A stretch of 49,474 nt of DNA from Gemmatimonadota bacterium. Lineage in GTDB: Bacteria; JAAXHH01. Below, piece after piece: positions 7,144 through 47,255 of this stretch. A program made the position numbers and the translations under genes. The notes below the pieces were generated by a model, which saw only the letters and a program-made list of their open reading frames with translations, did not search any database and was not told where the DNA came from. Every line of letters starts with the position of its first letter. Positions within the stretch are counted from its first letter, which is position 1. The stretch lies in the NCBI GenBank assembly GCA_026706345.1, contig JAPOYX010000242.1, forward strand, positions 1 to 49,474. Reading direction: 5' to 3'.

Positions 7144-10100
7144 TCAGCGACCCGGTCCATGAAGCCGCAGCGCTTCCCGAAACACCTCCTGGGAGACCCA
7201 GCGCGTGTTATAGGCGCCCCGGTAAGTTCGCAGGTCGGCATCGTCCGGATAACGGGACGCCAGACCGTAAGGATAATCGGGCATCCCGTGAAAGGGCAGC
7301 GGTTCGATCGTGGCGGCGGTCGCCGTGTTCAGGTCGCCCTCCTTGAGCCATCCGTCGGTATGCAGGACAAAGTCTCGCGTCCAGCCAGGCGGTGGTTCGG
7401 GAAGGTCCGCGGCATCGAAGGTCACCTTGATTTCCTCTCCCGAACTGTAGATGACATAACGGTTGTCGGATGCCCTCAGCAGGGGCGTCACGTCGCCGTA
7501 CCGCGTTCTGTATCCCTCGAAAGGCAGCCACTGAGGTTCGCCGCTCAACGATTGGTAATCCCTGATAAATGGTCCATAGGGCGCGGTCCGGTACTCCCGG
7601 GAGTAGCCGCGGTAGTGTAGATCCGCGATTTCGGGCGACATCCGCGTGATGCGCGTTTCGGCCTGCAAGGGTTCGTCGACGGTGAAAAAGGCCTCGCTCC
7701 AGTACAGTTGCAGGTTCGTGGTAAGCCTGACGCGGTAGTCGTCGGCAGCGAATCGGTCCGTCAAATCGATGAATACGGTCTTGTGTTCCCCAGACGGAAA
7801 GCCGGTGTACGGTATCACGGTCCGCCACATTCCTTCCTCGTCCGGCGTTTCCAGGTACGGCGCGACCACGGCGGCGTTTTCGCGCTGGGACAGGGCCAGG
7901 TTGGAACTGGGCTCGACGGGCATGATCCAGCCACACAGGTACAGGTGGATCCGTTCCGCGTCCTTCAGATCGCCCAGGTCCAGCGTAATGGAATGGAGTT
8001 CGGGGACGCCCTGGAAGTCACCGAGCCTGTAATCACCGACGTAAAGGCTGTCCCGGGCGGTGAGATGGGGCAGGATGTTTCTTCCATGGTGGTCATGAGC
8101 CGCCACGGGCAGGCGCGGTTCGGTCACCGTATGGATCTCGAGATCCGGGTACGGTGGCGGCAGGTACTTCTCATCCACGTAGATGTCCGTCTCATCCGGG
8201 TGGTCGACGACCAGCAGTTCCATTTTGTCCATGTACACCGCGTCCCATAGTTCTTCCACGACCCGGACCTCGAACTTTCCGTCCCGCAGCCGCAACTGGT
8301 CCCCGCGAATCTTCACATAATCGTTCGCCGCGTCCGGAAAGGCCGGCGTGCCGGTTTCCGTCAGGGCGCCGATGGCGCTGCGCGTCATCAGGTGGGTAAC
8401 GAATACGTAACGGTCGCCGTTCCAGGTGTACAGCGACGGACACGAACCCTTGAGCCGCTGGGGTTCGACGATGAGCGTGCGGGACTCCGGATCGATCCGG
8501 TTCTGGGGCACACCGTTGCTCCAGACGACCCGGATGACGTCGGCCTGTTCCCGGGTGCCGAGACCGACGTGGGTGACGGGAGCGTCGACCAGCAGGGACT
8601 GGTAATGTGCCCCGGCGTTTACCTCGATCGTGGATCCTATGCCGTAGAAGTTGTTCTTCCCGCTTCCTTCCAGGGCCGCGGCAAGCTGCACCTTGAGCCA
8701 ACCGTTTGCGTTGCCGCCGTCATTACGGAGTATCATGGGGCGGCCCGCGGAGAGTAGTACGATATCCAGGTCACCGTCATCGTCCAGGTCACCGGGTTCC
8801 ACGTCTTCGATGGTCGGAGGCAGGCCGGGCAGCAGGGACGCCTGTTCCTCGAAGCGGCCATTCCCCAGGTTTCTGATCAGCCGGAGCCCTGCCCCCTCCG
8901 GCGCCGCGGCGCCGGCCAGGATCAGGTCGATGAATCCGTCATTGTCGAAGTCGACGGTCCGGACGGCGACGGCATCGAGGCCGTCACACGCATTGCCGAA
9001 CGCCGATGGCGTGCCCTTTCCGTCGAAACGGCTGCCTGCTTCGTTCCACAACATCCGGCATCCGCCGCCCCCGGTTCCCGCGAGAAAAAGGTCCAGCGCG
9101 CCGTCGTTATTGAAATCGGCCGCGGCAACCGTCTTCGCTCCGTCCCAGCGGATACCGCCGAAGCGGCCGGTCCAGTCCACCCACCTGCCCTGACGCACGT
9201 TTCGGTAGATCCGGTGCGCCCCGTCCCCGAACAGCGCGACCACGTCCACAGCCCCGTCCAGATCGAAGTCGCCCCACACAATCGGCTGGGCAGCTGGGGT
9301 GCCGGAAGCGCCATTCCCGCCTGCGCCGGAAACGCCATCTCCAGACGCAACGGAGACTTCGCCTCCCGTTTCTTCGAAACCTACTGCAGCCGTGGCATCT
9401 TCGAACAGGCCGCCCTCCGTATGGCGAGAGAATCGAAGCGCCCGCCCGTTGGACGCCAGGATGTCCAGGTCGCCGTCGTGGTCGAAATCCGCCCGCGAAG
9501 CGTACACAGGCGAATTCGACCCGGTAGAATCGAAGGTCTGGACCAGGACGTAGGTCCCGTCTCCCGCGTTGTGATACACCCGGGACAGTCCGACTTCGGC
9601 CACGTGCAGATCCGCGTCCCCGTCGTTGTCGAAATCCCCCGTTGTCAGCCGGTAGTTCGAACCCGCGTCTTCACCGGTCCACGGGTTCGAGCCGGCCTCC
9701 CAGCCACGCTCGCGGTTGTGAATGACGGCCAGCCCATCCGGGCCTGCCAGCACCATGTCTAGTCGGCCGTCCCCGTCCAGGTCCGGCAGCGCCAGGTCCG
9801 TCCATCCGTCCTCGGCAGGAAGTAAAGCGCTTATCGATTCGTCGCCCGCATCTACGAAATTCATGTCGACCAGGGTGTCCGCGGTCACGACGGCGAGGTC
9901 AGGCGGCGCCGTCCGGAAATCGTAGAGCGGGGGCGACTGTTGCGATGGATCCCCCAGGCGGTCCCGCGACGCCCGGTAGGCCGGGTCCACCACGAGCAGG
10001 TTGCCCAGGATGCCCGCGCTGGAACCGGCCTCGGCCGTGTCACGGCGGTTCAGCGCGTCCATGGTTCGGTCCAGCCAGATCCGAATGTCAGCCGGAACGG

Positions 10101-37409: not shown

Positions 37410-37528
37410 AATTATTGAACAATTCACTTGTTCCGGATAATGTACCATGTAAAGCATCTGATAAAGCGCCCGCAAAACTGGGAGGGAGCTTTTTGCAAGA
37501 TTTCCTTACTAAAGGAGAATATCTTAAC

Positions 37529-40336
37529 ATGAGACCTGCCAGATTTATCTCCGTTCTTGTGCTTGCGATATTCGCCTTCGTCACAGCCGGCGCCGGCGCC
37601 CAGGAAGCCCAGGAACCGGCAGACGAGGTCGATTTCGTCATGGAAGAAGTGACGGTGACCGGTTCCCGGATCAGGGGCGAGGCCGCCGAATCCACCGCAC
37701 CGGTCATCATCCTCGCCAAAACCCAGATACAGGAGAAGGGACTCGCGTCCATCGGCGATGTGCTCCAGACCCTGACCGTCCAGTCCAACGCCATCAATAC
37801 CCAGACCAACAACGGGGGGGACGGATCCACCCGGATCAGTCTTCGCGGACTGGGCTCGGGCCGAACCCTCGTACTGGTCAACGGCCGCCGGTTCGTGCCG
37901 GGCGGAACCGGGGCGAACTCTTCCGTCGACCTGAACTCCATACCGGCTTCCGTCATCGAGCGAATCGAGGTACTCAAGGACGGCGCCTCGGCCGTATATG
38001 GTTCCGATGCGGTGGGCGGCGTCGTGAACGTCATCACCAGGTCCGACCTGGAAGGCGTGGAGTTCGAATACTACCAGGGGCTTTCGGGCGCGGGCGACGG
38101 TGACGTGATCGACGCCAGCATCACCACCGGCCTGCGAAGCGGCCGGGGCAGCATCCTGTTCTCCGCCGGATACCACAGCCGGAAGCCCGTCTGGACCGGT
38201 GACCGTGACTTCAGCAAAGCGGATAAGGCATACGACTGGGAGAAGAACGACGGGACCTTTGCCACGAACGGCAGTGCTGCGACGCCCGAAGGAACCATCA
38301 TCGACCGTCTGGAGGAGGAAGGCAACGCGGCCTGGCAGTCGATCGTGGAAAGAGCCGGAGCGGACGCCGGGGTTTACTTTAACGCGCCGTCCGGTGGCTG
38401 GCGTCCTTTCAACTCAGCCGGAAATTCGGACGACGGCTCCGGCGACCTGTACAACTACCAACCGGAGAATTACCTGTACACTCCGCAGACGCGGTACTCC
38501 GCCTTCCTGAGCGGCAACTACCTGTTCACCGATAATCTGAGCGGCTTCTTCGAGGTATCGTACACCAACCGGCAGTCGGACCAGAAGCTGGCTCCTACCC
38601 CTCTGTTAATCTACTTCGAAGATGATGTCGTGCTGTCGGCCGACAACCGATACAACGAATACGGTCGGGACTTCCTCGACGTCCGCCGCCGTTTCGTCGA
38701 AACGAGTAACCGGAACTTCCTGCAAGACCTCGACACCTACCGGATCGTCCTGGGCATGGAGCACGAGTTCCGGGGATTCACCGGGGACCTGGCCTTCTCC
38801 TACGGCCGCACCAGTGGAACCAACGTCAACGAGGGGCAGTTCATCCTGAGTAACGTAAGGAGGGCGCTGGGACCCGATTCGGAGTGCGCGGCGCCCTGCG
38901 TACCCCTGGATCTGCTACACGGCGCTGGCACCATCACGGACGAGATGCTGAAATACATCCAGTACACCGGAATCGCGAGGGGTTTTACGCAGCAGAAGAT
39001 CCTGCAGTACAACCTGACCGGCGACATCGTCGAATTGCCGGCGGGTTCCCTGGCCATGGCCGTAGGCGCTTCCTCGAGGTGGGAAGCCGGAGGTGCTATC
39101 CCCGATCCCATTACCGCCACGGGCAACACCACGGGCAACAAGGGAGAAGCGACCGAGGGCGATTACTCCGTCCGCGCGGTGTACGCCGAAACCAGTATTC
39201 CGCTCTTTCAGGGTGAGATGGGCGGCCTGGACGTGACGGCCGCCGGCCGGCTTTCTGACTACGACACCTTCGGGACGAACTTCACGTACGAAGCGGGCGC
39301 ACGCCTCGAACTCCCGCGGGGCCTCGCCTTCCGTTCGACCTACTCGAAAGCCTTCCGCGCGCCGAGCATCGCCGAATTGTACCTGGGTCAGAGTGACAGC
39401 TTTCCGGTGGTCAGCGATCCCTGCAGCGTCGTGGACAAAGCCGACAACCCGCGCGATCTGACCTCGCAGGAGATGCGCAACTGCGCGTCCGCGGGCGTGC
39501 CTTCTGATTTCGAGGATACCCGTGCGCAGATACGGGCCAGGGTCAGCGGATCCACGGACCTCGATCCCGAGCGGGCCAACACGGTCACCGCCGGCGTGGT
39601 GTACCAGCCCGATTTCCTGCCGGATCTCGACATCGCGGTCAGTTATTACGCCACGAAGATCGAGGATGAAATCGGAGCGCTCGGCGCGGGGCTCATCCTG
39701 AGCAACTGCTACTCCCAGGACGCCCCGACACACTGCGACCTGATCCAACGGGACCAGTTCGGCGTAATCACCAACATTTTCACGACCGCCACCAATATCG
39801 GCGAGACGGAGACCAGCGGTCTCGACATCGAACTGAACTATATCGACGACACGCCGCTCGGTCTGCTCTCGGCGCGACTCGAGTCCAACCTCCTTTTCGC
39901 CTACGACGTGTACCTGCCCATACCGGGCGGTTTCGAACAGTTAAAGGGCAAGGGTTACTACGACCTGGGCGTGTTTCCCAACTGGCGGCATAATGCCAAT
40001 GTCGGATTGAAGTGGGGACCGGCATCGGCGGGCGTGACGTGGCAGTACGTCGGCGGGTTCCAGGAGTGCGAAGACGATGACTGCAAGGGCCTGTACCGCG
40101 ACGACGTCGAAACGACCCCGGTGGTCCGAAACGTGGATGCGAACCACCTCTTCGGTATCCAGGGGTCCTACCGGTTGTTTACCGGTGCCGGCGGTTCGGT
40201 GATCACAGTCGGTATCAACAACGTTTTCGACCAGGCGCCCGCGGTTCTCTTCAACGGCTCCCTGGGGACGTCGGACGCATCGACGTACGACTTCCTGGGC
40301 AGGTACCTGTACGTGCGCCTTTCCCACTTTCTGTAA
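37529..40336 (+). CDS. TonB-dependent outer-membrane receptor (copy 1)
   Basis: A 935-residue receptor with a signal peptide (ending AGAGAQ), a TonB-box-like segment before EEVTVTGSRI, a plug domain (DVLQTL, TRISLRGLG, VLVNGRRFVPGG, AVYGSDAVGGVVNVI) and a C-terminal beta-barrel ending in the aromatic YLYVRLSHFL. It imports a ligand across the outer membrane using TonB energy; the ligand is not known. Cysteine pairs in loops (SECAAPCVP, SNCYSQ and ECEDDDCKGLY) are shared with copy 2 and suggest disulfides. The frame is open from 37415, but the ATG at 37529 has AAAGGAG upstream and starts the signal peptide. The paralogue follows 29 bp later. Confidence 0.95.
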   Translation: MRPARFISVLVLAIFAFVTAGAGAQEAQEPADEVDFVMEEVTVTGSRIRGEAAESTAPVIILAKTQIQEKGLASIGDVLQTLTVQSNAINTQTNNGGDGSTRISLRGLGSGRTLVLVNGRRFVPGGTGANSSVDLNSIPASVIERIEVLKDGASAVYGSDAVGGVVNVITRSDLEGVEFEYYQGLSGAGDGDVIDASITTGLRSGRGSILFSAGYHSRKPVWTGDRDFSKADKAYDWEKNDGTFATNGSAATPEGTIIDRLEEEGNAAWQSIVERAGADAGVYFNAPSGGWRPFNSAGNSDDGSGDLYNYQPENYLYTPQTRYSAFLSGNYLFTDNLSGFFEVSYTNRQSDQKLAPTPLLIYFEDDVVLSADNRYNEYGRDFLDVRRRFVETSNRNFLQDLDTYRIVLGMEHEFRGFTGDLAFSYGRTSGTNVNEGQFILSNVRRALGPDSECAAPCVPLDLLHGAGTITDEMLKYIQYTGIARGFTQQKILQYNLTGDIVELPAGSLAMAVGASSRWEAGGAIPDPITATGNTTGNKGEATEGDYSVRAVYAETSIPLFQGEMGGLDVTAAGRLSDYDTFGTNFTYEAGARLELPRGLAFRSTYSKAFRAPSIAELYLGQSDSFPVVSDPCSVVDKADNPRDLTSQEMRNCASAGVPSDFEDTRAQIRARVSGSTDLDPERANTVTAGVVYQPDFLPDLDIAVSYYATKIEDEIGALGAGLILSNCYSQDAPTHCDLIQRDQFGVITNIFTTATNIGETETSGLDIELNYIDDTPLGLLSARLESNLLFAYDVYLPIPGGFEQLKGKGYYDLGVFPNWRHNANVGLKWGPASAGVTWQYVGGFQECEDDDCKGLYRDDVETTPVVRNVDANHLFGIQGSYRLFTGAGGSVITVGINNVFDQAPAVLFNGSLGTSDASTYDFLGRYLYVRLSHFL

Positions 40337-40365
40337 TCGGCGCGGCGAAGAGGCGTGAGGTTTCG

Positions 40366-43179
40366 GTGGTGGCAATTCGTCGCATATTACTCCGCTTAGT
40401 GGCTGTAGTCGTCGCGGTTGGCACTACCGGTGTTTTCGCCCAGGACACCGGGAACCCGGACGACGACCGGATCGAGTATGTCTTCGACGAGGTAACGGTC
40501 ACGGGGTCCAGGATAAAGAGTGAAGCGGGACAGTCCACGGCCCCGGTCGTGATTTTGTCCCGCGCGCAAATCCAGGCCAGGGGTCTGGCCTCCGTCGGAG
40601 ACATACTCCAGACACTAATCGTTCAATCCAACGCGACCAATACGCAGGCCAATTACGGAGGCGACGGGGCCACCCGCATCAGCCTCCGCGGCCTGGGCGC
40701 CCAGCGCACGCTGGTACTGGTCAACGGACGGAGGTTCGTGCCGGGCGGCCTCGGCGCTGACGCCTCAGTCGATCTGAATTCCCTCCCATCCACCGTCATA
40801 GAACGGATCGAAGTGCTCAAGGACGGGGCCTCGGCGGTCTACGGCTCGGACGCCGTGGGCGGAGTCGTCAACGTCATCACGCGCACGGACCTGGAGGGCA
40901 TCGAGGTCGAGGCCTACCAGGGGATCTCGGGCGCCGGCGACGGGGGATCCCTTGATCTTGGCCTGACGGCTGGTCTGAGGAGCGGCAAGGGGCATCTGAT
41001 GTTCTCCGCGGGTTATCACGACCAGCGGCCGGTCTGGACCTACGAACGAAGTTTCAGCGAAACGGACAAGAATTACAACTGGGCGAAGAACGACGGGTCG
41101 TTCACGACGAGCGGCAGTTCCGCGACCCCGGAGGGGCATATCATCGACCATTCCGGCGAAGCGGGCAACGCCGCATGGCAGACCCTCAATGCGGCCGCCG
41201 GCGAAGATGCGGGAGACTACCATCGAGACCCGGTATCAGGCTGGCGATCCTTCAATTATGCCGGCAACTCCCTCGACGGCACCGGCGACCTCTACAACTA
41301 CCAGCCCGAGAATTACATCTACACCCCACAGATCCGATACACGGTCTTTCTCAGCGGAAACTATGCGTTAAGCGACCGCCTGGGGACCTACTTCGAGGTT
41401 TCCTACGCAAACCGGCAGTCCGAACAGAAACTGGCGCCGACGCCCCTCTTCACGATTGAAGAGGACATCACGGTCTCGGCCGGCAACCGGTACAACGAGT
41501 TCGGCCGCGATTTCACGGATGTCCGCCGCCGATTCGTCGAAGCCGGCAACCGGATATTCAACCAGGATATCGACACGTATCGCATCGTGCTGGGACTGAA
41601 GACCCCTGTGCTGGGTTTCGATTCCGATCTCTTCTTTGCCTATGGACGCACGGCGGGCAACACGGTCAACCGGGGCCGGTTCATCCGAAGCCGCCTCATG
41701 CGCGCGCTGGGTCCGGCCGGCGACTGCAGCGGCGACTGCGTGCCCCTGGATATCCTGCACGGTGCGGGGACCATTACGCCTGAGATGCTCGCCTACATAC
41801 AGTATACCGGCGTTGCCCGCGGATACTCTCAGCAGAAGATACTGCAATGGAACCTGACCGGGAACGTGGCGGAACTGACGCACGGACCGCTGGCCGTGGC
41901 CGCGGGCGGGTCCTCGCGGTGGGAGTCTGGCGCGTACACGCCGGATCCGATTACCGCCTCGGGCAACACGACCGGGTTCCGGTCCGAAGCAACCGAGGGC
42001 AGCTATGCGGTCTCGGCGGCCTACGGAGAGACCAGGCTGCCGGTCTACCACGGCAACGGGGTAGGAATCCACCTGACGGCGGCCGGCCGGGCCTTCCACT
42101 ACGATACGTTCGATTCCGGCTTTACCTACGAAACAGGAACCAGCATCGAACTGCCGAGAGGGATGGTCCTTCGCGCCACCTATTCCAATGCCTTCCGGGC
42201 ACCCAACATAGCCGAGATGTTCCTCAGCGCAAATGACGTGTTTCCCCTGGTGAGCGATCCATGCAGTACGATAGACGAAGGAGGGAACCCCCGGGAATTG
42301 ACTGTACAGCAGAAACAGCACTGCGCCGCCGCGGGCATACCGGCGGGTTTCAGGGATTCGCGGGCGCAGCTTCGCGCCAGGGAGGGCGGCTCGACCGACC
42401 TCGATCCCGAAAAGGCGGCCATGATCACAGGGGGATTGAGCTATCGGCCAGACTTCGCGGAGAACCTCAATATAAACCTGAACTACTACCGGAACCGGAT
42501 CGAGGATGAAATCGGATCGCTCCCGGCGGGCGTCATCCTGAGCAATTGCTACTCGCAGGTCAACCCCACGAACTGCGAACAGATCGTACGGGACGCCGAT
42601 ACGCGCTTGATCTCCCACATCATTCAGACCAACACGAATGTGGGCGAGACCGAAACGGCGGGATTGGACCTGGAAGTCGACTACAACGGAACCACGCCTG
42701 TGGGCGTACTGGCGGCCCGGCTGGAATCCAACCTGCTGTTCACGTACGACCAGTTTCTTCCCGTGGCAGCCAGTACGGAAGTGATCAAGGGCAGGGGATA
42801 CTACGATGTGGGCGTGTTTCCCCGGTGGCGGCACGCCGCATCGGTGGATCTCAAGTGGCGGCGCGCCTCGGCGGGACTGACCTGGGAGTACGTCGGCGGA
42901 TTCGTGGAGTGCGAGGACAACGACTGCAAGGGGCTCTACCGTTCCGATATCATCGAAAAACCGGCATACCGGGACGTGGAAGCCAACAGCGTGCTTGGCC
43001 TTCGAGGGACGTACAGGCTTTTTTCACGGGCAGGCGCCACCGTGCTGACCCTGGGGATGAACAACGTGCTCGATCAGCCGCCCGCGGTGATCTTCAACGG
43101 CCTGCTGGGAACCTCGGATTTCACCACCTACGATTACATGGGCAGGTACCTGTACTTGAGGTTGTCGCATTACCTGTAA
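40366..43179 (+). CDS. TonB-dependent outer-membrane receptor (copy 2, tandem paralogue)
   Basis: A 937-residue paralogue of the preceding receptor, colinear with it from the plug (VTVTGSRIKSEAGQSTAPV) to the barrel end (YLYLRLSHYL). Shared distinctive blocks include IQYTG-x-ARG, QQKILQ-x-NLTG, GETETSGLD/GETETAGLD and ECED-x-DCKGLYR. The start is a GTG at 40366 or 40369, since no upstream ATG gives a signal peptide; the signal region VVVAVGTTGVFAQ follows. The 29-bp gap implies co-transcription. Divergence is concentrated in barrel loops, so the pair may have split ligand specificity. The gene ends at the border of the low-GC islet. Confidence 0.94.
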   Translation: MVAIRRILLRLVAVVVAVGTTGVFAQDTGNPDDDRIEYVFDEVTVTGSRIKSEAGQSTAPVVILSRAQIQARGLASVGDILQTLIVQSNATNTQANYGGDGATRISLRGLGAQRTLVLVNGRRFVPGGLGADASVDLNSLPSTVIERIEVLKDGASAVYGSDAVGGVVNVITRTDLEGIEVEAYQGISGAGDGGSLDLGLTAGLRSGKGHLMFSAGYHDQRPVWTYERSFSETDKNYNWAKNDGSFTTSGSSATPEGHIIDHSGEAGNAAWQTLNAAAGEDAGDYHRDPVSGWRSFNYAGNSLDGTGDLYNYQPENYIYTPQIRYTVFLSGNYALSDRLGTYFEVSYANRQSEQKLAPTPLFTIEEDITVSAGNRYNEFGRDFTDVRRRFVEAGNRIFNQDIDTYRIVLGLKTPVLGFDSDLFFAYGRTAGNTVNRGRFIRSRLMRALGPAGDCSGDCVPLDILHGAGTITPEMLAYIQYTGVARGYSQQKILQWNLTGNVAELTHGPLAVAAGGSSRWESGAYTPDPITASGNTTGFRSEATEGSYAVSAAYGETRLPVYHGNGVGIHLTAAGRAFHYDTFDSGFTYETGTSIELPRGMVLRATYSNAFRAPNIAEMFLSANDVFPLVSDPCSTIDEGGNPRELTVQQKQHCAAAGIPAGFRDSRAQLRAREGGSTDLDPEKAAMITGGLSYRPDFAENLNINLNYYRNRIEDEIGSLPAGVILSNCYSQVNPTNCEQIVRDADTRLISHIIQTNTNVGETETAGLDLEVDYNGTTPVGVLAARLESNLLFTYDQFLPVAASTEVIKGRGYYDVGVFPRWRHAASVDLKWRRASAGLTWEYVGGFVECEDNDCKGLYRSDIIEKPAYRDVEANSVLGLRGTYRLFSRAGATVLTLGMNNVLDQPPAVIFNGLLGTSDFTTYDYMGRYLYLRLSHYL

Positions 43180-43242
43180 AAGGTGACACTGCACATCGTA
43201 GGAAGAACAGTTACAGCAAAGCTCTGTATGCCGGGAGTTTTC

Positions 43243-43258
43243 ATACACGTCTGTGTAT
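43243..43258. terminator. Hairpin between convergent genes
   Basis: A perfect 6-bp stem ATACAC (43243-43248) / GTGTAT (43253-43258) with a GTCT loop lies between TonB copy 2 and the convergent nuclease-like gene. It has a few Ts before the stem on the plus strand and no strong T-run after it. Confidence 0.3.
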
Positions 43259-43271
43259 CTAACTGCTAATA

Positions 43272-44639
43272 CTATCCCTGGTTTTCTGCTCTTTCTGTAA
43301 CCACTCCAATTTCACGTGTCTCTGCGTCCTCGGACGTCTGCTTAGGATCACGTTTTTCAATAGAAGGTGGAGGGGGTATCCACCTACGCAAGTTCTGGCC
43401 TACGCGGTCGTAGAAACTAGGAATCGCTTTTTCAAGGTCTTCAATGAATGTTGACCGACCGGAGAAACGACCTGCTAGATCCGAGATGACCAAGACCTCA
43501 AAAGAAACTGGAACTGCGCCAGGTCGATCTATTTCTAAACATCCTGGGTCTTCCTGAACTTTCTGCAATACAGCCTGTGTAGATTGACTACGTCCTGACC
43601 AAAACGCACGTACGAAGACATCATCGCCTTCAACATTACGCAACTGACGTAGTATCCAATTAATCCTCGAGGTGGCTCTCTTCCTATCACCGGGGGACTG
43701 TAACTTCATCGAACAAGAAATCGTCCTCCGCTGAAGATTCACGACAACTTCCAAGTCACTGGCAGCATTAGGAATCACGAATCCGGATGTTAGCTCGTTG
43801 TCGTTAACCAGGAAGTCACAGGCGTCCCTTAATCGAAGTGCTGTATCGGTTCGATGCTTTCGTGGAAGACGTATATCGACCCGTTCGCCAATTCGACGAG
43901 TCAGTATCAGGCAGACATCTCTTTCTTCCTGATGCCAACTGGCAACAGTATTTTCAATTTCAGGTGATGTTCTTTGAAACTGTTCACCATGCCTGATACC
44001 CATAACGAGTTGGCGCCATTCCCTGTTCATTTGGTCAAATCTCCTGACGCCTGAATTCGAATGTTCGAAGTATCGAACCATTTCCTCCAGAATGAATCTC
44101 TGTTCTGAGCTTAAATCCTCACTGTCTTTCAGCGTTAGCATCGCTTGTGTACGAACACTCGTCCACGAAATGTGATAAAACTCCAGTTTTCGACTTAGTC
44201 GCTTAGGAACGGAATAGGGAATATGCGAAGGCAACGGCACCAGTTGATTTGAAATTGTGATCACAGTGTTGATCCCGTGCGCTCGAGCGACCTCGCCATA
44301 TCTAAGTACTTGCTCCTCATCTATCTCCGCATTGTCAACTTTAGCCTCAAATAGCGCAGACCATTCCTTGCTACGGCTCGTAATACTCAAAACACCATCT
44401 GGTCGTTCAGTACGATTCGGGTCTGGTGTTGGAAAGACAACTTCTGTGTAACTGTCTATATCTGCAGTTTTCCCTACTCTCATACTACAAAAACCAAGCA
44501 ATTGCGCGGCGAATGGTCGGACAGATCCTAACACGGCTAGCAATATGGATACCAGTTTCTCCTCTTTTCTGGACTCGGCGAGACTTGGTATCAGCCTTGC
44601 AGGTTTGGCATTACTTAAGACTTCCTCAAGCGAATCCAT
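43272..44639 (-). CDS. Putative PD-(D/E)XK nuclease-fold protein in a low-GC islet
   Basis: The 455-residue protein has no name I can assign. Its N-terminal third shows the order of a PD-(D/E)XK nuclease: a Glu-containing first helix (AESRKEEKLVSILLAVL), D81 in ERPDGVLSI, E98-x-K100 in WSALFEAKV and a downstream helix with Q110 (DEEQVLRYGEVAR). The middle and C-terminal parts hold a beta-rich region with RRTISCSMKLQSPGDRKRA and a proline-rich RWIPPPPS tail, without motifs known to me. Base composition (well under 50% GC by eye) differs sharply from the ~62% surroundings, implying horizontal acquisition. A strong GGAGG precedes the ATG. It may act in DNA restriction or nucleic-acid defence, but no methylase or helicase partner is present. 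Confidence 0.6.
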   Translation of the reverse strand: MDSLEEVLSNAKPARLIPSLAESRKEEKLVSILLAVLGSVRPFAAQLLGFCSMRVGKTADIDSYTEVVFPTPDPNRTERPDGVLSITSRSKEWSALFEAKVDNAEIDEEQVLRYGEVARAHGINTVITISNQLVPLPSHIPYSVPKRLSRKLEFYHISWTSVRTQAMLTLKDSEDLSSEQRFILEEMVRYFEHSNSGVRRFDQMNREWRQLVMGIRHGEQFQRTSPEIENTVASWHQEERDVCLILTRRIGERVDIRLPRKHRTDTALRLRDACDFLVNDNELTSGFVIPNAASDLEVVVNLQRRTISCSMKLQSPGDRKRATSRINWILRQLRNVEGDDVFVRAFWSGRSQSTQAVLQKVQEDPGCLEIDRPGAVPVSFEVLVISDLAGRFSGRSTFIEDLEKAIPSFYDRVGQNLRRWIPPPPSIEKRDPKQTSEDAETREIGVVTERAENQG

Positions 44640-44723
44640 AGACCCTCCAATTGGCGTAACTGAGTTAAGAATCTATTGCGTAGTTGAAACAAACTTCACG
44701 TAAATCAACGCAATACTGAATAG

Positions 44724-45992
44724 TTAGTTCGTAGGAAGTCCGGCAGGTGGGTCGGAATTTGGATCTCTGTTTCGTGGTGTTCGTTCTTCACCAGGTTCAG
44801 TTCCCCGACTGTCTTGAGAATCTTCTCCGTTCTCAGGTGTTACACTATCCGATGCATCGGAGGACTCCGATTTTCTGTTGCTTTCTCCCCCTTGCTTCGT
44901 GGTATCTTCCTCTGCTTCGTGGCCGCCTTGGTCCGACTTGTCGCGCCTGTCGGTATCAGAGTCCCCATCGCCACTGTTCTCTCCGCCCTTTCGGTCCACT
45001 TTCTCATCCTCCTCCGGCTCCTCCGAGTACCCCATCTCCATATCGTAGTCGTAGATGAACTCGTCGTCATCCGGCCAGTACGCCCGGCCGGTGCGTTGCT
45101 CGTCGGTCGGAGTGGACGAACCGCGGGGGAGCGTCGGGGTATCCGGTTCGCCCGTGGTCAGCGCGGGTTGCTCCTCGTCACCTCCATCGTCGCCTCCATC
45201 GCCGCCACCGTCGTCGTCGCCATCTTCCTCTTCTTCAGCCTCTTCGGCTTTCCTCCGGCTCCTGCCGATCAGCGCGGCGATACCCATGCTGATGAAATAC
45301 AGCACCACCAGCGGAATCGCCACGAGGGTCTGCGTGTAGGGATCGCCCGTGGGCGTGATGACGGCGGCGGCGATGAATATGACCACCAGGGCAATGCGCC
45401 ACACCCGTTTAAGCACGCCGGCGTTCAGGATGCGAAGCCAGGTCAGAAACGCCACCACGGCGGGCATCTGGAACACGACGCCCATGATGAGCACCATCTT
45501 GTTCACGAGTCCCACATAGAATCCGATATCCCACTGGGGCTTGATGTCAGGGACATGCAACTGGACGAAAAACCGGACCATGACCGGGATCAGGATGTAG
45601 AAAGCGAAGGCGGCGCCGACGAGGAACAGGACGCAGCAGAAGAAGATGACGATGGGGACGTACTTCTTCTCCTTGTCGAGCAGACCGGGCGATACGAATG
45701 TCCAGAGGTTGTAGAGCACATAGGGCAGCGCGAAGGCGAATCCCAGCAGCAGCGAGATGTTCACCTTGGCCGTGAACATGCCGGCCGGCCGGATGGCCTG
45801 GATCTCGATCTCGGTCTTGAGGTTTTCCTGAAACGTCGGCGAGAGCAGGAAATTGATGATATAGTCGGCAAAGGTGAAGCAGAGGACCATGCCCACCAGG
45901 ATGGCGAGCACGGATTTCAGTATGGCCCTGCGAAGCTCTTCGAGATGTTCGATGAAGGACATCTCGCCGCTACCGATTTTCGCTGGGGACAT
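44724..45992 (-). CDS. tatC: Twin-arginine translocase subunit TatC with a long acidic C-terminal tail
   Basis: TatC is the receptor for twin-arginine signal peptides. Residues 1 to about 245 are a normal TatC: MSFIEHLEELRRAILKS at the N-terminus, FVSPGLLDKEKKYV, FQMPAVVAFL and the late ITPTGDPYTQ loop, with six hydrophobic segments. The family normally ends near residue 250. Here a further ~175 residues follow, made almost entirely of Asp, Glu, Gly, Ser, Thr, Pro and Arg (starting RSRRKAEEAEEEEDGDDDGG) and probably disordered in the cytoplasm. The last ~90 codons are noticeably AT-richer than the TatC core and abut the low-GC islet. tatA lies far away at 20028. Confidence 0.93.
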   Translation of the reverse strand: MSPAKIGSGEMSFIEHLEELRRAILKSVLAILVGMVLCFTFADYIINFLLSPTFQENLKTEIEIQAIRPAGMFTAKVNISLLLGFAFALPYVLYNLWTFVSPGLLDKEKKYVPIVIFFCCVLFLVGAAFAFYILIPVMVRFFVQLHVPDIKPQWDIGFYVGLVNKMVLIMGVVFQMPAVVAFLTWLRILNAGVLKRVWRIALVVIFIAAAVITPTGDPYTQTLVAIPLVVLYFISMGIAALIGRSRRKAEEAEEEEDGDDDGGGDGGDDGGDEEQPALTTGEPDTPTLPRGSSTPTDEQRTGRAYWPDDDEFIYDYDMEMGYSEEPEEDEKVDRKGGENSGDGDSDTDRRDKSDQGGHEAEEDTTKQGGESNRKSESSDASDSVTPENGEDSQDSRGTEPGEERTPRNRDPNSDPPAGLPTN

Positions 45993-46244
45993 GATAGGGC
46001 CTCTCGCCGGTCCTCACTTCCGAATAACGCGCGGTAAGTAAGCCCGGACCATGGTTCCTGTCAAGCAAAACCCCCGTGCTCACCGCCTCCAACGGCCTTG
46101 ACGAAGGCATGTCCGGGGCATAAGTTTAATCGAGTTTGACGACGGCGAATTTCGGGCCGCAGCGGCTTGTCCGCACGGGTTCGCAGTAGGGATTGGCGCC
46201 GCTTTCGGGAGCCGATTGCGCATGAGAATGACCGGTGTACGCAA

Positions 46245-47255
46245 ATGACCGGGGCACTTAAAGGAGTTATCCTGACGGCGAACCCCGGTGAAGGCGACTC
46301 TGCCGGATGGCATTCCGGCACGGGGATGCTCCTGCCTATGGCAAACGTGCCGATGATCGAGCGGATCCTGGATGAGTATGAACGCGCCGGCGTGAAGGAA
46401 ACGCTCATCGCGGCCGGCAAAGACACCCGCGAGGCCGCTTCAAACTGTGGCAGCGGCGCGCGCTGGAACATGGTCCTTACCTACCATGACCAGCCGGAAG
46501 CCCGCAGTCCGCATGAGATCATGAAGGAAGTTGCGGCATTCACGGGCGAAGCGATGTTTCTCGCTACCCGAGGTGCCGTACTGCTGAATGCGGAGGCCTA
46601 CCTGTACGCCGTTCAAAGGTACGATGAAAACGATCTCCGCGGCATACGCCTTTGGGAGAGAAACGGGGAGGCGCACGGTGACGGGGATGGGAACGACGGG
46701 GGTGACGCGCACGGGAGCGATGGGAGCGACGGGATCTATCTCCTGACACCGGACGTCTGCGACGTCATAAACGAAAGCGGTGGCGCCGGTAACCGCGCAT
46801 ATTCTTTCGGTCCGATCCTGGATACGCTGGCCGGCCGCGGCGACCGGGTGCTGACCATGAAACGGGAAGACGAGCCGTACGAAACCGGCACGCCCGAAGC
46901 CTACCTCGAATCGAACGAACGCCTGCTCGAGTCCGCCACACGGGATGCGGTGTCCCCGGAGGTCATGGCCGACAACTTCTCGTCTCCGAACCTTGTGTTG
47001 CGCCCACCTGTGGCCCTGGACGATACGGCCGAACTGGAGCGTTGCCGGATCGGTCCCGGGGTCTGTATCGGTCCCCGAGTCCGTATCGGGCACGGCGCGG
47101 CCATCGAGCACAGCGTGATCATGGAGGGCGCGGATATCGGCGACGGCGCATCGATTTCCCGCGCGATCATAGGAAAAAACGCCAGCATAGCAAACCGGTC
47201 GGTGATGCACGGCCGGGCGGACCGGGTGACCGTCGCATGTCCCATCTCACCATAG
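46245..47255 (+). CDS. Degenerate nucleotidyltransferase with left-handed beta-helix repeats
   Basis: A 336-residue protein resembling sugar-nucleotide pyrophosphorylases. The N-terminal half has GVILTANPGEGD and LLPMANVPMIERILDEYERAGV, aligned with the usual K-P-x-x-P-x-x-N-K-P-M-I region, but the nucleotide signature G-x-G-T-R-L and its catalytic Arg/Lys are missing. A Gly/Asp/Ser-rich insert (about residues 144-164) interrupts the domain. The C-terminal part has hexapeptide repeats (CRIGPGVCIGPRVRIGHGAAI, then MEGADIGDGASI) forming a left-handed helix. It may be a regulatory or inactive relative, such as those paired with GlgC or eIF2B subunits. The start is the ATG at 46245; an upstream frame from 46167 is not supported. 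It overlaps selB by 19 bp. Confidence 0.72.
   Translation: MTGALKGVILTANPGEGDSAGWHSGTGMLLPMANVPMIERILDEYERAGVKETLIAAGKDTREAASNCGSGARWNMVLTYHDQPEARSPHEIMKEVAAFTGEAMFLATRGAVLLNAEAYLYAVQRYDENDLRGIRLWERNGEAHGDGDGNDGGDAHGSDGSDGIYLLTPDVCDVINESGGAGNRAYSFGPILDTLAGRGDRVLTMKREDEPYETGTPEAYLESNERLLESATRDAVSPEVMADNFSSPNLVLRPPVALDDTAELERCRIGPGVCIGPRVRIGHGAAIEHSVIMEGADIGDGASISRAIIGKNASIANRSVMHGRADRVTVACPISP

Follow-up and report, generated by a model that had tools for sequence, protein, structure and literature searches.

The question raised by this locus is what a lone AT-rich gene between a TonB-dependent receptor gene and tatC encodes, how it came to lie there and what function it may serve. The window, i.e. 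the whole stretch of DNA analysed (49,474 nucleotides), corresponds to the whole of contig C242 of an assembly comprising 4.49 Mb in 293 contigs.

The low-GC islet and its history in the genus

The GC content of the window falls from approximately 0.60 to 0.45-0.47 across positions 43250-44750 and is back up by about 45000. Only one long ORF is found in this islet, on the minus strand (Table 1), so that the GC profile and the ORF content both agree with the single-gene islet of about 43190-44725 described in the initial annotation. GC3 was compared with that of 28 other ORFs of at least 200 aa picked within the window. The gene stands apart (GC 0.469, GC3 0.415) from these ORFs, whose GC3 is 0.64-0.85. 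The 3' end of tatC, which had also been described as AT-richer, has a GC content of 0.50 in its last 150 bases versus 0.60 in the rest of the gene. Scanning of the islet for repeats, promoters and Rfam families revealed neither mobile-element ends nor a promoter or RNA.

Table 1. Features of the locus, in window coordinates. G000 is the genome of the window and G002 a second genome of the same genus.
Feature	Position	Strand	Basis
AT-rich foreign block, from TonB-receptor stop to native part of tatC	43180..44870		GC profile; empty site in 9/12 genomes; tatC tail comparison
Gene of the predicted two-domain nuclease, 455 aa	43272..44639	-	ORF; homologues; dN/dS ~0.09-0.12, G000 vs G002
Predicted N-terminal PD-(D/E)XK nuclease domain, residues 21-161	44157..44579	-	AF2 model of low-to-middling confidence; VIA-align matches McrC, PaqCI, FokI, AspBHI, BamHI
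Predicted catalytic D81 codon	44397..44399	-	Conserved in 34/34
Predicted catalytic E98-x-K100 codons	44340..44348	-	E98 in 34/34, K100 in 33/34
Q110 codon, active-site helix	44310..44312	-	Conserved in 34/34
C-terminal domain, residues 231-423, type III secretion chaperone/YbjN-like fold	43371..43949	-	AF2 model of residues 205-434; best 18 VIA-align rows
Imported last ~48 tatC codons, partly common to G002 only	44727..44870	-	Alignment of 11 TatC tails
tatC, conserved neighbour outside the system	44724..45992	-	Present in 12/12 genus genomes
TonB-dependent receptor-like gene, conserved neighbour outside the system	40366..43179	+	Genus locus comparison

The locus was compared among all 12 genus genomes available. 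Wherever it is readable, the gene order is conserved, with the TonB receptors followed by tatC, a fast-changing gene and selB. The islet gene lies between the TonB-receptor and tatC stop codons in G000 and G002 only. The site is empty in nine genomes, in which only about 2-110 bases separate the two stops. In the twelfth, G005, the site is unreadable because the locus meets a contig edge, and a search of the whole G005 genome for the gene was negative. Thus, a vertically inherited core gene, which would have spoken against transfer, was not seen at this position. Since the insertion is common to two separate assemblies, it does not result from misassembly. Within the 48 C-terminal residues of the G000 TatC, a stretch of approximately 35 residues is common to G000 and G002 and unlike the other nine of 11 tails, which indicates that the foreign block runs into the tatC reading frame.

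The nuclease gene copies of G000 and G002 differ by a dS of 0.60-0.77 (two methods), compared with 0.51-0.85 in the flanking genes, and their dN/dS is approximately 0.09-0.12. The low dN/dS together with the flank-like dS shows that the gene is selectively maintained and did not arrive very recently. The broken copies L056 and L090, in which the gene lies in two pieces and is apparently decayed or interrupted, would be in keeping with selfish or neutral passenger DNA that serves no selected function in the host. This reading is nevertheless very improbable given this dN/dS at a dS of 0.6-0.8 and catalytic residues that are invariant or nearly so. A genus tree of ten rows including selB (truncated for G003, G006 and G011; G005 and G010 left out) placed G000 as sister to the empty-site genome G008, and G002 in another clade. 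As a simple explanation, transfer between G000 and G002 in recent times was rejected, as dS is flank-like and both genomes have empty-site neighbours in their different clades. One old insertion followed by losses, or two old acquisitions, are possible histories.

Several further observations were made on the flanks. Two tandem TonB-dependent receptor genes with 63% mutual identity occupy 37415-43179, and this tandem is conserved across the genus where readable. At its C-terminus, TatC has a long acidic tail of low complexity, which is hypervariable within the genus; the tail of G001 is of the type found in the other clade, suggesting local recombination. The gene between tatC and selB (46167-47255) shows 46-80% identity within the genus versus 78-90% for selB, and hence evolves much faster.

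Domain architecture of the encoded protein

The signature D81, E98-x-K100 and Q110, on which the first assignment as a PD-(D/E)XK nuclease was based, had been read and placed correctly, and its conservation among 34 homologues is given in Table 1. Y114, N131, H156, W159, E186, M204 and W208 are also invariant in the 34 family members. Fragmentary, masked or split copies (L006, L056, L059, L090) were omitted from these counts. An AF2 model based on six sequences (pLDDT 70.7, pTM 0.52) contains the PD-(D/E)XK order of elements. The alpha-beta-beta-beta-alpha-beta core is formed by helix 25-49, strands 60-64, 82-87 and 92-99, helix 108-120 and strand 125-130, these blocks having mostly a pLDDT of 58-79, and the D...E-x-K residues are located on strands 2-3. 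Structural alignment of residues 21-161 with VIA-align retrieved McrC (Z 8.3), PaqCI (7.1), McrBC (6.9), FokI (6.6) and AspBHI (6.4), and further EcoT38I, BamHI (5.7), MspJI (5.4) and Cap4 (5.3). Foldseek alone returned no match with E <0.001 for the model of the nuclease protein. With element order, structural matches and a conserved active site in agreement, and no predicted fold lacking the core, the PD-(D/E)XK fold of the N-terminal domain is well supported at the level of modelling. The domain is probably a metal-dependent DNA endonuclease.

The protein had been noted to have no familiar family name, and this also held for the libraries searched. No match of the window protein was obtained in Pfam (up to E 1), in NCBIfam or, by sequence, in the PDB (E up to 5). 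The weak Pfam matches among 29 members were VRR_NUC (8/29, best E 8e-4), Tox-REase-7 (1/29) and PDDEXK_4 (1/29), all of the same nuclease superfamily (clan) as PD-(D/E)XK; L003 reached 16.2 bits for VRR_NUC (PF08774), the curated cut-off being 23.8 bits. PHROGs gave no convincing match for the family. The best PADLOC match of the window protein (PDC-M10A, E 0.035, 35 residues) was too weak to be accepted, and across the 29 members the best E-value with PADLOC 2.0.0 was 0.0015, in one member, which was not significant. No description of this protein was found in the open-licence literature consulted.

The interbacterial function suggested in the initial annotation found no support. That the protein is an interbacterial toxin, either secreted (perhaps through the Tat system) or delivered by contact, is extremely improbable: this reading would be based only on the adjacency of tatC and the distant Tox-REase-7 similarity of the one member. 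The conserved nuclease region lies at the very start of the protein, neither a domain for export or delivery nor an immunity gene was seen, and the adjacency to tatC occurs in only two of the 12 genus genomes.

The description as a lone nuclease-fold protein stands with respect to the fold and fails with respect to "lone", as a separate, well-folded C-terminal domain of about 200 residues had been overlooked. Residues 205-434 were modelled alone (AF2, seven sequences) with a pLDDT of 90.3 and a pTM of 0.84. The best 18 VIA-align rows (Z 7.7 to 4.7) comprised 15 YbjN or type III secretion chaperones and three uncharacterised proteins, the names being YbjN, AmyR, Spa15, SycT, ExsC, VecA, SicP, SycH, STM2138, SchA and SycE; rows below these were unrelated (Z 4.5 and less). 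The best match, Z 7.7, extended over 127 residues, and the class I chaperone fold was assigned with caution because Z remained under 8. With Foldseek alone, this domain had no match at E <0.001, the top rows being mostly kinases of low probability. Comparison by HHalign with a profile built from 30 YbjN proteins gave a probability of 0.2%, no better than controls, and no sequence-profile kinship of the window protein to YbjN (PF10722) was found. A common fold is therefore indicated, whereas membership in YbjN is not established. In a sample of 289 alphaproteobacterial genomes, the domain was confined to genomes with the full-length family (17 of the 17 matching genomes), and a search for it on other effectors found none. 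Conversely, the N-terminal nuclease domain of the family invariably comes with this C-terminal domain.

Spread of the family and its genomic neighbours

Relatives were identified at 64% identity in a Binatia genome, at 59% and 49% in two Gammaproteobacteria and at 41% and 39% in Alphaproteobacteria; 11 Rhodococcus and Streptomyces plasmids carry relatives with 25-30% identity. The family is present in 11 of 321 genomes of the gammaproteobacterial sample (approximately 3%), two of 198 genomes in the Binatia phylum and, among the Alphaproteobacteria, 18 of 289 (approximately 6%, one of the 18 being a weak match of 63 residues), with centre genomes counted. The gene is AT-richer than its flanks at 30 of 33 loci and the lowest-GC ORF at 15 of 30, compared with 3.9 expected; these counts leave out L005, L006, L056, L059 and L090, whose copies are fragmentary, masked or split. 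The family tree mixes phyla, with 12 label changes versus a minimum of five, and the clade of the window (support 100/100) groups a Binatia and two Gammaproteobacteria with the host genus. The earlier view of the islet as transferred DNA agrees with the presence in two of 12 genomes, the odd composition and this cross-phylum tree, and mobility of the family is well supported.

Homologues were also found in phage-related contexts. One (L083) is flanked by tail genes and tail-fibre/endolysin genes within a prophage-like region. Two are on IMG/VR contigs, one with a terminase and a serine integrase (L033) and one (L125) with a CI/UmuD-like regulator and genes for recombination nearby. None of 50,697 annotated phage records holds the family. 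Directly downstream of the L125 homologue, an apparently membrane-anchored protein of 791 aa without a PHROGs match is encoded (L125:1486-3861), which is possibly a partner. At L054, the end of the nuclease gene coincides exactly with the start of a membrane-protein-like ORF (7301-8041) of the same strand.

At 32 loci, 119 ORFs lying no more than two positions from the gene were compared with PADLOC, and strong matches were present at four loci (L003, L048, L051 and L085, the last by domain-level helicase similarity only), given here as a descriptive count. A strong match at L055 lies just outside the two-ORF range, and most other neighbours are ordinary metabolic genes. The genes at L048 and L051 encode type IV methyl-directed enzymes. 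They would fit a modification-dependent, type IV-like restriction enzyme whose C-terminal domain reads modified DNA and whose N-terminal domain cuts it, as would the structural proximity of the latter to McrC, AspBHI and MspJI. This reading is quite unlikely, however, since the C-terminal domain resembles protein-binding chaperones and no known DNA-reading domain, and the window gene has no adjacent McrB-like partner.

In the actinobacterial plasmid homologues, the same two domains are preceded by TerD, as annotated in 10 of 11 records (one is unannotated); L008 and L009 were scanned and gave TerD E-values of 6e-47 and 5e-49. A ThiF-Mov34-DUF6602 module is located near the TerD-nuclease gene in two of four plasmid regions examined (L008 and L144, Rhodococcus). 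The TerD fusion is annotated as response to stress. Excerpts of two papers connect Ter genes with the inhibition of phages (PMC8123226) and propose that they counter superinfecting phages (PMC7824862).

The TerD fusion could also be taken, together with the weak VRR_NUC similarity and the binding of the SSB-like DdrB by the YbjN-like DR1245 (excerpt of PMC3575483), to indicate a DNA-repair or stress-response nuclease that spreads by transfer without being a defence effector. This is considered unlikely: the family is sparse, patchy, AT-rich, found in prophage cargo positions and absent from nine of 12 close relatives at the locus, and is in these respects unlike repair genes.

Proposed function and comparison with known systems

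With moderate confidence, the family is interpreted as a horizontally spread single-gene nuclease of defence type, which would, as a hypothesis, be targeted or gated by its chaperone-like domain. The defence part of the function suggested at the outset is plausible in view of the sparse occurrence, the carriage by prophages, viral contigs and plasmids, and some defence neighbours; a defence role, held to be moderately probable, accounts best for a family that is sparse, AT-rich and borne by phages and plasmids. Domains of this TY-chaperone type have been predicted to be peptide-binding chaperones in conflict systems (excerpt of PMC9503650). The N-terminal domain would cut DNA as a metal-dependent endonuclease, and the C-terminal domain would bind a polypeptide, as its structural relatives do. 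Hypothetically, this binding would bring the nuclease to invading phage or plasmid DNA, or unlock it there; alternatively, the cell's own DNA would be the target in an abortive response. In the actinobacterial plasmids, the added TerD would feed a Ter stress or antiphage signal into the same effector. A specific form, proposed only tentatively, is a one-gene defence in which the chaperone-fold domain senses a foreign polypeptide (e.g. a phage or SSB-like protein) and switches on the fused PD-(D/E)XK DNase, the TerD version coupling the Ter stress signal to it.

Although widespread and conserved, the family bears no curated name in any library searched except via its TerD partner. If the proposed function is confirmed, it would add a compact defence effector and suggest that the chaperone fold that holds secreted effectors also performs sensing or targeting in immunity. 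The TerD fusion, if confirmed, would give a concrete handle on the long-standing question of how Ter genes inhibit phages.

The C-terminal domain has its fold in common with YbjN and the class I type III secretion chaperones ("TY-chaperones", PMC9503650), but differs from them by the missing sequence-profile link, its fusion to a nuclease and its larger size. With the nuclease domains of McrC, PaqCI, FokI, AspBHI, MspJI and Cap4, the window protein has the core topology, the P-D...E-x-K and the Q motif in common (Z 5.3-8.3). In contrast to these, it has no PDB sequence match, is encoded by a single gene without McrB partner and carries another second domain; at the place of the AAA+ McrB of McrBC systems, its neighbours are the TonB receptor and tatC. 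The TerD domain (PF02342) of Ter systems is found in the plasmid homologues and is absent from the window protein. Mobile single-gene defence effectors form a general class. The window family does not convincingly match any PADLOC model, but is, like this class, a sparse, AT-rich, prophage- and plasmid-borne single gene.
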